Assembly: GCF_009498295.1 (NCBI RefSeq)
Contig: NZ_CP040813.1
Location: forward strand, 2,239,001 to 2,303,000
Direction of reading: 5' to 3'
DNA length: 64,000 bases
Source: Oceanihabitans sp. IOP_32
GTDB lineage: Bacteria; Bacteroidota; Bacteroidia; Flavobacteriales; Flavobacteriaceae
Positions 2,639 through 40,871 of this stretch are shown here, one piece after another; positions within the stretch are counted from its first letter, which is position 1, and each line of letters starts with the position of its first letter. The translations under genes were made by a program, and so were the position numbers. Under the pieces are notes generated by a model. It had not been told where the DNA came from. It made no database searches and worked only from the letters and a program-made list of their open reading frames with translations.

Positions 2639-4402
2639 ATGCCTTTAACTAACGTTGAAACAGAATTACCCATCATTAATACGCACACCCATACGTTTAC
2701 CAAAGATCATACACCAAAATATATTTCTAAGCGTTTTGTTGCTTGGCCTTTGTATTGGATTTTAGAAACTAACTTGGTGTTGGCCTTGATTAAGGCTTAT
2801 CTGGATAGAGACAAGAATGACTTTACATACAAAGGAAAAAATATGAAGAGGCGGGTTTATGCTTCCATGAAGTTTTTTAGAGATACTCCCGTAATTAATG
2901 TCCTTTATCCGCTTTTTAAAACTGCGATTTGGTTGGTTTTTTTTCACTATTTGCTTAATTTACTCAGCTCATTGCTAAAAGGCACCCTACTATTCGGGTG
3001 GTTGTGCGATTTAAACAGTCTGTACCTTTATCCGCCCATGCCCAAAATAGATAATACTTGGAATACCATTTTTTTGTTGTTGGGAATTGTTCTTGTTTTT
3101 AAGAATATTAGACAACGACTAGGCCGTTATCTCTGGTCGCGTATTCAAAAGATGATTGGTGAGGAACGCCTTGAGTTTTTGTTGCGCTATATCAAAATCA
3201 TTCGATTTACGGGCAAACTTAATCAAGCTCATGTTTTTAACGATTTAGAACAACAATATCCTGAGGGATCAAAATTTGTCATTCTCCCTATGGATATGGA
3301 GTTTATGCATGCTGGACCCGTAAATATTTCTTATCTGGAGCAAATGCAAGAAGTGTTGCGCTTAAAAGCAAATAATCCAAATACGGCTTTACCTTTTATT
3401 TTTATAGATCCGCGGCGTGTTAGAGCACAAAATGCAGACGATCCTTTTTTAAGTTTTAATACTTCAAAACCTAACGCTATCACACTAAATGAGTGCAAGG
3501 TTGATGCTTATTTTAAAGGCGGTTGTGTTGGTATTAAAATTTATCCGGCCTTGGGTTACTATCCATTTGATAAGGATCTTTTAACACTTTGGCTTTACTG
3601 CGCTCAACAAGATATTCCAATCACAACCCATTGCTCTGTCGGGCCCATCTTTTATCGCGGAAAACTTAAAGACTTACACTTGGATATAGGAAAGGAGGTC
3701 AACAAAAAATTCGACTACCACCCTGTATTTAATGAAATTATCGACAACGATGCTCATGGAAAACCTATTATTGAGCGTCTGTTATTAAATCAACTCAAGA
3801 ATAAGGACTTTCAAAGTAATTTTACGCATCCTTTAAATTATTTATGCCTGCTCCATGAGCCTTTTTTAAAAGCCACTCTTGATTATCATAATGATCGAGA
3901 CCTAAATACATTATTTGGTTATAAAAATGGTAAATTACAACGCAACTTAAGCCGACTTAAAATAAACTTAGCGCATTATGGAGGTTCAGAGTACTGGGAT
4001 CAATTCCTATCTCAAGACCGCTTTAGGGATGCCAATGCGATAATTAATAAGCCGGAAATTGGTTTAGATCTTACCAACCGCTTAGATAATTTAACCATCC
4101 TTTATAATACTTGGCATCATGTGGATTGGTTTTCTATTATTTCGTCTATGATGCTAAATTTTGAAAATGTTTATGCAGATATCAGCTATACTTTACACGA
4201 TTTGAAATATTTGAATCTGCTCTCTGAAATTATGGACAATCCAAATATTACAGAGCGCATCCTTTTTGGCACCGATTTTTATGTGGTTAGTAATCATAAG
4301 ACTGAAAAACAATTTTGGATGGATATGCAAAACACGCTTGGGTTAACCAAATGGCAACAAATAGCGCACTATAACCCTAAGCGTTTTTTGAATTTACCAT
4401 GA
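2639..4402 (+). CDS. Amidohydrolase-family protein with membrane segments inside the barrel
   Basis: Metal-dependent hydrolase of the amidohydrolase-2 type, 587 aa. Metal-ligand candidates appear in order: HTH at residues 16-18, K300 in GIKIYP, H331 in TTHCSVGP, H446 in NLAHYGG and D546 in FGTDFYV. Between the first metal motif and the rest lies a hydrophobic region (about residues 36-55, 88-121 and 141-156) that should cross or embed in the membrane. This is longer than usual members (about 300-400 aa) and the insertion is unusual. Substrate is unknown; the fold is used for decarboxylases and C-N or C-O hydrolases. It starts at ATG with no Shine-Dalgarno, as is normal here. No close neighbour suggests an operon. 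Confidence 0.75.
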   Translation: MPLTNVETELPIINTHTHTFTKDHTPKYISKRFVAWPLYWILETNLVLALIKAYLDRDKNDFTYKGKNMKRRVYASMKFFRDTPVINVLYPLFKTAIWLVFFHYLLNLLSSLLKGTLLFGWLCDLNSLYLYPPMPKIDNTWNTIFLLLGIVLVFKNIRQRLGRYLWSRIQKMIGEERLEFLLRYIKIIRFTGKLNQAHVFNDLEQQYPEGSKFVILPMDMEFMHAGPVNISYLEQMQEVLRLKANNPNTALPFIFIDPRRVRAQNADDPFLSFNTSKPNAITLNECKVDAYFKGGCVGIKIYPALGYYPFDKDLLTLWLYCAQQDIPITTHCSVGPIFYRGKLKDLHLDIGKEVNKKFDYHPVFNEIIDNDAHGKPIIERLLLNQLKNKDFQSNFTHPLNYLCLLHEPFLKATLDYHNDRDLNTLFGYKNGKLQRNLSRLKINLAHYGGSEYWDQFLSQDRFRDANAIINKPEIGLDLTNRLDNLTILYNTWHHVDWFSIISSMMLNFENVYADISYTLHDLKYLNLLSEIMDNPNITERILFGTDFYVVSNHKTEKQFWMDMQNTLGLTKWQQIAHYNPKRFLNLP

Positions 4403-39069: not shown

Positions 39070-39077
39070 TATATTTG
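39070..39077 (+). promoter_or_regulatory. -7 box of rpsU
   Basis: TATATTTG fits TAnnTTTG, 38 bases before the ATG, leaving a leader of about 30 bases that contains the Shine-Dalgarno. Confidence 0.5.
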
Positions 39078-39099
39078 CGCCCTGAAAAATCTAAAAGAG

Positions 39100-39106
39100 A
39101 GGAGGT
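39100..39106 (+). promoter_or_regulatory. Strong Shine-Dalgarno of rpsU
   Basis: AGGAGGT, nine bases before the ATG, complementary to the 16S rRNA 3' tail. I saw no comparably strong site before the other genes. In Flavobacteriia the anti-Shine-Dalgarno is normally masked on the ribosome by bS21 with bS18 and bS6; a strong site in front of the bS21 gene itself fits autogenous control. Confidence 0.85.
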
Positions 39107-39115
39107 TAAGACACT

Positions 39116-39310
39116 ATGTTAATAATACCAGTAAAAGAAGGAGAAAATATAGATCGAGCGCTAAAACAGTATAAGCGTAAGTTTGTAAAAACGACGGTTA
39201 AAAACCAGTTGCAAGAACGTAAAGAATTTACAAAGCCTTCTGTTGTGCGCCGAGCCAGTAAGCAAAAAGCACAATATATTCAAAGTTTAAGAGATGCAGA
39301 AAACATCTAG
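39116..39310 (+). CDS. rpsU: Ribosomal protein bS21
   Basis: 64 aa. Recognised from IIPVKEGENIDRALKQYKRKF and KPSVVRRASKQKAQYIQ, the Bacteroidota form of S21. Small-subunit protein near the 16S 3' end; in this phylum it takes part in hiding the anti-Shine-Dalgarno. Gene order rpsU-xerC-hpf-tRNAs-tuf is typical for Flavobacteriaceae. The leader carries an exceptional Shine-Dalgarno, and a terminator follows the gene. Confidence 0.96.
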   Translation: MLIIPVKEGENIDRALKQYKRKFVKTTVKNQLQERKEFTKPSVVRRASKQKAQYIQSLRDAENI

Positions 39311-39334: not shown

Positions 39335-39359
39335 AAGTCCCGCAATTTGCGGGACTTTT
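39335..39359 (+). terminator. Terminator of rpsU
   Basis: AAGTCCCGC pairs with GCGGGACTT across a short AATTT-type loop, followed by a T run, 25 bases past the stop. Confidence 0.8.
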
Positions 39360-39562: not shown

Positions 39563-40453
39563 ATGTTATTTAAGCCATTCGCAGACTATTTATTATTAGA
39601 AAAAAATTATTCAAAATTAACTGTAAAGGCCTATCAGCGGGATTTGGAGAGGTTTTTAGAATTCATTAAAAATGAATACGAGACCTCTAATATCGATCAA
39701 GTTAATTATAGCCAAATAAGGAGTTGGATAGTTTCTATGGTAGAAAACGGGTTGTCCAACCGAAGTATCAACCGAAAACTATCAGCATTAAATACCTACT
39801 ATAAGTTTCTTCTAAAAATAGAAGTCATTTCGCTAAACCCATTAGCTAAGCACAAAGCCTTAAAAACAAATAAAACAGTACAGATTCCGTTTTCTGAGAA
39901 AGAGGTTATGGCCGTTTTAAACGAGCTGTATTTTGAAAGTGATTTCGAGGGTATTCGCAATAAGTTGATAATCGAATTATTTTATAGCACAGGTATACGT
40001 CGTATAGAGTTGGTAGAATTAAAGTTATTAAATGTTGATTTAGAAGAAAAAACCTTAAAAGTGTTAGGTAAAAGAAATAAAGAGCGTATCCTTCCGTTAT
40101 TAGATTCTTTAGTCCCTACGTTTAAAAAATATTTAATATTAAGAGGGGAGTTAGAAAGCATTACAGATAGAGATGTTTTGTTTCTCACTAAAAAAGGAGT
40201 TAAAATTTACGAAACACTTGTATACAGAATAATAAATGAGTATTTTAGTTTGGTGTCTGCTAAAGTTAAAAAAAGCCCACATATTTTAAGGCATTCTTTT
40301 GCAACGCATTTGCTTAATCAAGGTGCCGATATCAATGCGGTAAAAGAACTTTTAGGGCATTCAAGCCTTGCAGCAACACAAGTGTATACACATAATAGTA
40401 TTGCCGAGCTAAAAAAAGTACATGTTAATGCTCACCCCAGAAGTGAGAAATAA
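39563..40453 (+). CDS. xerC: Tyrosine recombinase XerC-like
   Basis: 296 aa. SAM-like N-terminal core-binding domain (residues about 1-85) and catalytic domain with the full tyrosine-recombinase set: R146 (STGIRRIEL), K170 (LGKRNKERI), H240/R243 (HILRHSFATH), H266 (GHSSLAATQ) and nucleophile Y275 (VYTH). Length and conserved position between rpsU and hpf indicate the chromosomal dimer-resolution enzyme rather than a mobile-element integrase. XerC versus XerD cannot be decided from sequence alone. Confidence 0.9.
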   Translation: MLFKPFADYLLLEKNYSKLTVKAYQRDLERFLEFIKNEYETSNIDQVNYSQIRSWIVSMVENGLSNRSINRKLSALNTYYKFLLKIEVISLNPLAKHKALKTNKTVQIPFSEKEVMAVLNELYFESDFEGIRNKLIIELFYSTGIRRIELVELKLLNVDLEEKTLKVLGKRNKERILPLLDSLVPTFKKYLILRGELESITDRDVLFLTKKGVKIYETLVYRIINEYFSLVSAKVKKSPHILRHSFATHLLNQGADINAVKELLGHSSLAATQVYTHNSIAELKKVHVNAHPRSEK

Positions 40454-40568: not shown

Positions 40569-40871
40569 ATGAAAGTAAACACGCAATCAATTAATTTTAC
40601 TGCAGACCAAAAGTTAATAGACTTTATACAAAAGCGTATGGATAAACTTGATATGTATTACGATAAGGTCATAAAATCTGACGTGTATTTAAAGGTAGAA
40701 AACACAAGTGAAAGGGAAAACAAAATATTTGAGGCTAAGTTAAGTGTACCAGGCGATAGTTTCGTTGTAAAAAAACAATGTAAAACTTTTGAAGAAGGGG
40801 TAGATATGGCTGTTTCGTCTCTAGAAAGACAGTTAAAAAAGCGAAAAGAGAAATTAAGACCACATTTATAG
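40569..40871 (+). CDS. hpf: Ribosome hibernation-promoting factor (short HPF/RaiA)
   Basis: 100 aa. Single S30AE domain (MKVNTQSINFTADQKLIDFIQKR...VYLKVENTSERENKIFEAKLSVPG) with a basic C-terminal helix (LERQLKKRKEKLRPHL). Binds the decoding centre of idle ribosomes. There is no long-HPF dimerisation tail. Lies 115 bases after xerC, and a terminator-like stem overlaps the following tRNA promoter. Confidence 0.9.
   Translation: MKVNTQSINFTADQKLIDFIQKRMDKLDMYYDKVIKSDVYLKVENTSERENKIFEAKLSVPGDSFVVKKQCKTFEEGVDMAVSSLERQLKKRKEKLRPHL

Follow-up and report, generated by a model that had tools for sequence, protein, structure and literature searches.

Two bS21 genes, one with an extended Shine-Dalgarno, in Oceanihabitans sp. 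IOP_32 and related Flavobacteriaceae

Why should rpsU alone carry a strong Shine-Dalgarno (SD) among neighbours that start without one? The question is raised by a stretch of 64,000 nucleotides from Oceanihabitans sp. IOP_32 (the window), for which an earlier note had proposed a self-correcting loop of bS21 synthesis. The bS21 autoregulation model was reportedly first put forward by Jha et al. in 2021. According to the available sections of McNutt 2023 (PMC9976891), bS21 hides the anti-SD in Flavobacterium johnsoniae, its C-terminal helix and Tyr54 contact the 16S tail, and ribosomes without bS21 initiate faster on rpsU; an rpsU'-gfp reporter rises 3- to 4-fold in bS21-depleted or mutant cells, and Flavobacteriales typically have an rpsU SD below -13 kcal/mol (about 80% do). 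As a mechanism, then, the loop is already known from that source. The autoregulation model assumes that one gene both reads and answers a shortage of bS21. The window features needed here are the following.

39070-39077, + strand: promoter-like -7 element TATATTTG of rpsU1, fitting TAnnTTTG, the promoter consensus of Bacteroidota
39096-39106, + strand: extended SD AGAGAGGAGGT of rpsU1, with AGGAGG inside it at 39100-39105
39107-39115, + strand: spacer of 9 nt from SD to ATG (TTAAGACAC-T region), near-constant among close relatives
39116-39310, + strand: rpsU1, encoding bS21 of lineage A, 64 aa with Tyr54 present (open reading frame and profile matches)
39335-39357, + strand: terminator-like hairpin 3' of rpsU1, 10 pairs and a loop of 3, by consensus match only
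39563-40453, + strand: xerC-type tyrosine recombinase (PF00589, PF02899), constant neighbour of lineage-A rpsU
40569-40871, + strand: hpf, ribosome hibernation factor (S30AE; PF02482, 69 bits)

The strong, well-spaced SD of the earlier note is borne out: AGAGAGGAGGT ends 9 nt before the rpsU1 ATG (39116-39118) and pairs with the 13-nt 16S tail ACACCUCCUUUCU at -17.6 kcal/mol, through 11 bp of which one is G-U. Pairing energies throughout are from ViennaRNA duplexfold, where the McNutt 2023 authors used free_scan. The rpsU1 product is identified as bS21 by Pfam PF01165 (Ribosomal_S21; 54.9 bits, cut-off 27) and TIGR00030 (46.9, cut-off 28.95). The ending ...TTTGC is found at the same place upstream of most relatives' rpsU1 genes compared, and a sigma-70 scan detected no promoter upstream of rpsU1. 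Folding of the leader (39080-39160) is not above that of shuffles (z 0.88), by which a riboswitch-like or otherwise structured leader was ruled out. Because of the terminator-like hairpin, rpsU1 is probably transcribed alone, as a single-gene unit. The ribosome hibernation gene hpf is the second gene downstream. In the rpsU1 protein and its near relatives (L177, L205, L210, L211, L222, L302), KTTVKNQLQERK replaces KTG.KRQLQ.RK, and this subclade forms a small, well-supported branch (99) of the protein tree.

SD strength was scored for selected open reading frames (ORFs) in the window and, genome-wide, through sequence patterns. Among 51 mechanically chosen, non-overlapping window ORFs of at least 60 aa, rpsU1 alone reaches -7 kcal/mol; the next best is -4.9 kcal/mol. 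In a mock region further upstream of the same 51 ORFs, 3 reach -7 kcal/mol and none reaches -13. The hexamer AGGAGG is not enriched in the window (11 observed, 13.4 expected). Across the genome there are 156 occurrences of GGAGGT-N(3,12)-ATG and 171 of the same pattern reversed, and there is therefore no general SD use; SDs as a general start signal are ruled out by these counts together with the 51 window ORFs. The longer RRRRRGGAGGT-N-ATG has 6 genome matches, 5 of them within open frames of 343-653 codons on the same strand, which is not the case for rpsU1. GARAGGAGGT occurs 7 times, and its reversed control 5 times: three sites are antisense to 16S ends, one is that of rpsU1, two lie within long same-strand open frames (window position 3690, and L347), and one (L348) lies antisense to an open frame of 885 codons and has no start codon at SD distance. 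Since the extended string is not rarer than its reversed control, the meaning of the rpsU1 SD lies in its position and conservation, not in the string alone. No other equally strong SD was found at a gene start among the sites checked.

The earlier note had named two observations that would tell against it. Many equally strong sites are not seen among the 51 window ORFs or in the genome patterns, and the 16S 3' end does have the complementary sequence, the anti-SD complement being intact in all three 16S copies of this genome with a readable end. The 3' end of a fourth copy (G000:C1:415001-416284; L004, L005) is given as N and its anti-SD is unreadable; a broken copy with a truncated end was considered and set aside, as the sequence runs into a stretch of N. 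The 16S genes form two pairs, about 7-8 kb apart.

A PF01165 profile search of the genome found two bS21 genes, rpsU1 in the window and a further one, rpsU2.

G000:C1:1188697-1188891: rpsU2, encoding bS21 of lineage B (PF01165, 59.8 bits, cut-off 27; TIGR00030, 47.2, cut-off 28.95)

Both proteins have Tyr54. Since rpsU2 lacks the extended SD that marks the Bacteroidota rpsU autoregulation class (-1.4 kcal/mol by ViennaRNA duplexfold), it falls outside that class. A 16S gene that points away from rpsU2 has its 5' end at a distance of 1.2 kb from the rpsU2 start. The proposed loop is thus only partly upheld: the published mechanism exists and the SD, anti-SD and Tyr54 are all present, but a second, SD-less bS21 gene had been missed. 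With two bS21 genes of which one has an SD, the loop would control one of two bS21 sources; that it functions in this organism is suggested by homology. Upstream of many rpsU2 genes there is a palindrome, TTTAGGATAATCCTAAA, which was rejected as an operator, being mostly the end of the rpoD frame (YLG stop) with chance symmetry. Where rpsU2 has its own promoter, an inverted repeat, TTAGG-TTTT-CCTAA, stands just before the promoter-like AACTTTGC (L032-type upstream regions, for example L092, L093 and L118) and is a candidate operator or terminator.

The arrangement recurs in relatives. Two or three bS21 genes are present in 112 of 299 Flavobacteriaceae genomes and, among genomes of the same class that belong neither to the window's family nor to family f2, several are present in 8 of 284 (hand counts in both cases). 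In a first set of 50 genomes, chosen for holding rpsU2 and drawn from 50 of 80 lineage-B loci, every genome has one SD-bearing and one SD-less copy, and all 80 lineage-B loci of that first listing score -5.1 kcal/mol or weaker. In a second set, with at least two copies read per genome, 41 genomes were kept of 47, G027 being dropped because its second match was under the cut-off with no start found, and G213, G162, G029, G132 and G034 as duplicates of first-set genomes; exactly one copy is at or below -13 kcal/mol in all 41, eight of which have three copies. All these scores assume a canonical anti-SD in the relatives. An SD of intermediate strength precedes two non-A genes (L253, -10.2 kcal/mol; L276, -9.8 kcal/mol), and L072 and L316 were left unscored. 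L072 (G205) is a lineage-A frame with none of ATG, GTG and TTG where its start should be.

Assignment to lineages A, B and "other" was made from short protein motifs alone and then checked on few-column trees. Counted by distinct gene, the extended SD is present in 137 of 139 A genes, 0 of 103 B genes and 0 of 30 others. The two A genes without it are L328 and L329; the latter (G092) has AAAGAAACGAGT where relatives carry AAAGAAAGGAGGT, either a decayed SD or the partner of a changed anti-SD. Genomic context divides likewise in rows that include some genes fetched twice: xerC adjoins lineage A in 137 of 141 and lineage B in 0 of 129, and lineage B is directly behind rpoD in 72 of 129, with neither neighbour found in the remaining 57. 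In a tree of 110 proteins, built on 64 columns that resolve little and leave many forks open, the A rows group with one other in a starred branch (97), lineage B forms one unstarred branch (92% SH-aLRT), and 3 changes of the SD label are required. The proteins differ strongly at residues 23-34 (FDKTG..RQLQ in A, HRNIKVMQNLR in B) and share the C-terminal helix: Tyr54 is found in 100% of A rows and 100% of B rows, and lineage B keeps Tyr54-Ile-Gln at 100%, with VKRR..IQKA.YIQ.LRD almost unchanged. Among the other SD-less paralogs YIQ is kept in 5 of 30, and 4 of 30 have His or Phe at position 54; as most have a changed helix, they may fail to hide the anti-SD.

Phage genes were compared as well. 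With L407 and L445 left out of 81 viral loci, none of the remaining 79 (29 distinct proteins) has a bS21 SD reaching even -7 kcal/mol. Viral loci were matched more by lineage B (54) than by lineage A (5). A phage origin of rpsU2 is unsupported, as phage bS21 mostly branches apart from lineage B; for some of the other (non-A, non-B) paralogs such an origin is conceivable.

What, then, of genomes with a single bS21 gene? Among 30 of these, hand-picked, mostly lower-scoring and thus non-random, 19 have an A gene with SD, 5 only B, 4 only an "other" gene, and 2 an A gene without SD. One of the four "other" copies (L337, G035) resembles lineage A and has kept its place next to xerC. In eight genomes (5 B, 3 other) the sole bS21 is SD-less and non-A; in these the xerC locus is still present, accompanied by one or more of hpf, tuf and the window's acyl-CoA dehydrogenase, with no bS21 near it. 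As judged in draft genomes by one family search each and by the xerC locus, the A gene is lost in all eight and bS21 is supplied by the SD-less gene, which indicates that an SD-less bS21 can serve alone. At the other end of the scale, of the 30 best-scoring loci one is without a usual start and all 29 that were read are A genes with SD.

Loss of the SD-bearing gene may leave traces in the 16S tail. Matches to 16S were sought in 16 genomes, 8-9 of which gave none, and the copy in G157 is cut by N. Canonical ends were found in 9 copies from four SD-bearing multi-copy genomes. Two genomes without an SD-bearing bS21 have a readable end: in G035, a 91% complete draft (L353), the tail AUAUAUCUUUUCU has lost the CCUCC core, and in G174 (L354) the tail AUACCUCCUUUUU keeps the core with changed flanks. 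In the bS21 of G035 the C-terminal helix is altered as well. That CCUCC has been lost in Flavobacteriia is already recorded in the available part of PMC10783764. Altered tails after loss of the SD gene are thus a hint, from two genomes only.

Taken together, the findings make it fairly likely that rpsU1 is a feedback-controlled, and rpsU2 a feedback-exempt, source of bS21 for the same ribosomal seat. On ribosomes lacking bS21 the anti-SD would be exposed, and by pairing with the extended SD of 11 nt these ribosomes would start translation of rpsU1; the product would fill the seat, hide the anti-SD again and damp rpsU1. Translation of rpsU2 mRNA, which lacks an SD, should proceed as for the ordinary mRNAs without one. 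Because the C-terminal helix and Tyr54 are kept, bS21-B should fill the same seat, hide the anti-SD and silence rpsU1. We infer in this way that bS21-B is incorporated and hides the anti-SD, and that labour is divided between the genes: rpsU2 would provide a steady basal supply outside the feedback, to which rpsU1 would add on demand. A more tentative extension, to which we give somewhat less than an even chance, is that Flavobacteriaceae run such a two-gene supply: A would be read only at bS21 shortage, B, often transcribed behind rpoD, would be made independently of occupancy and silence A, A would be deleted where an SD-less bS21 suffices, and the anti-SD might then drift.

Other explanations were weighed against the same data. 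The divergence of A and B at residues 23-34 means that bS21-B might seat less well, and could point to a specialised ribosome in which bS21-B is seated with the anti-SD poorly hidden, so that rpsU1 and perhaps other mRNAs are favoured; the altered helices of the other SD-less paralogs would fit such a function. This is unlikely for rpsU2, given that lineage B preserves Tyr54-Ile-Gln and the surrounding helix, and that a second strong-SD gene to be favoured was not found among the sites checked. About as improbable is a reading of rpsU2 as a duplicate that is hardly expressed, or simply redundant, and has no regulatory meaning. The lineage-B rows with no detected rpoD or xerC neighbour could be read in that sense, but the protein is strongly conserved across many genera, more than half of the rows place it behind rpoD, and it is the sole bS21 in 5 of the 30 single-copy genomes. 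Very improbable, finally, is that the rpsU1 SD is an ordinary high-expression signal without feedback, since the genome makes no general use of SDs and the F. johnsoniae reporters respond to loss of bS21 (PMC9976891, in its available sections).

The window's own SD signal extends an already published pattern by a single genome; what is added here is that bS21 comes from two genes, with a single SD in each genome, and that some lineages have lost the SD-bearing gene. If a second bS21 gene stands outside the loop, cross-silencing of the first is to be expected, and relatives that have bS21 and no SD gene are natural loss-of-loop genomes. The physiological value of the loop, and what preserves a little-used anti-SD, are thereby opened to comparison and direct test. 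A search of the open PMC literature and Yutin 2012 (PMC3353972), with supplements and closed papers outside its range, returned no prior report of SD-less bS21 paralogs in Flavobacteriaceae, and the organisms listed with extra bS21 copies in the discussion of PMC9976891 include no Bacteroidota.

Among known systems, that of F. johnsoniae is closest, sharing an rpsU SD below -13 kcal/mol, the canonical anti-SD, Tyr54 and almost no other SD; in its available sections that work (PMC9976891) treats one rpsU, whereas here there are two bS21 genes, one with an SD. Francisella tularensis (PMC9578407, as described in PMC9976891) likewise has several bS21 genes per genome, thought to give different ribosomes, but among its paralogs, compared here by description, no difference in an SD sensing bS21 occupancy is known. 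The bS21 of Bacteroidetes phages, as far as the accessible text of PMC9723584 describes it, also resembles rpsU2 in being a second, SD-less bS21 that enters Bacteroidota cells, with an aromatic residue 54; the phage proteins, however, fall mostly outside lineage B in trees, and rpsU2 is chromosomal and often located behind rpoD.
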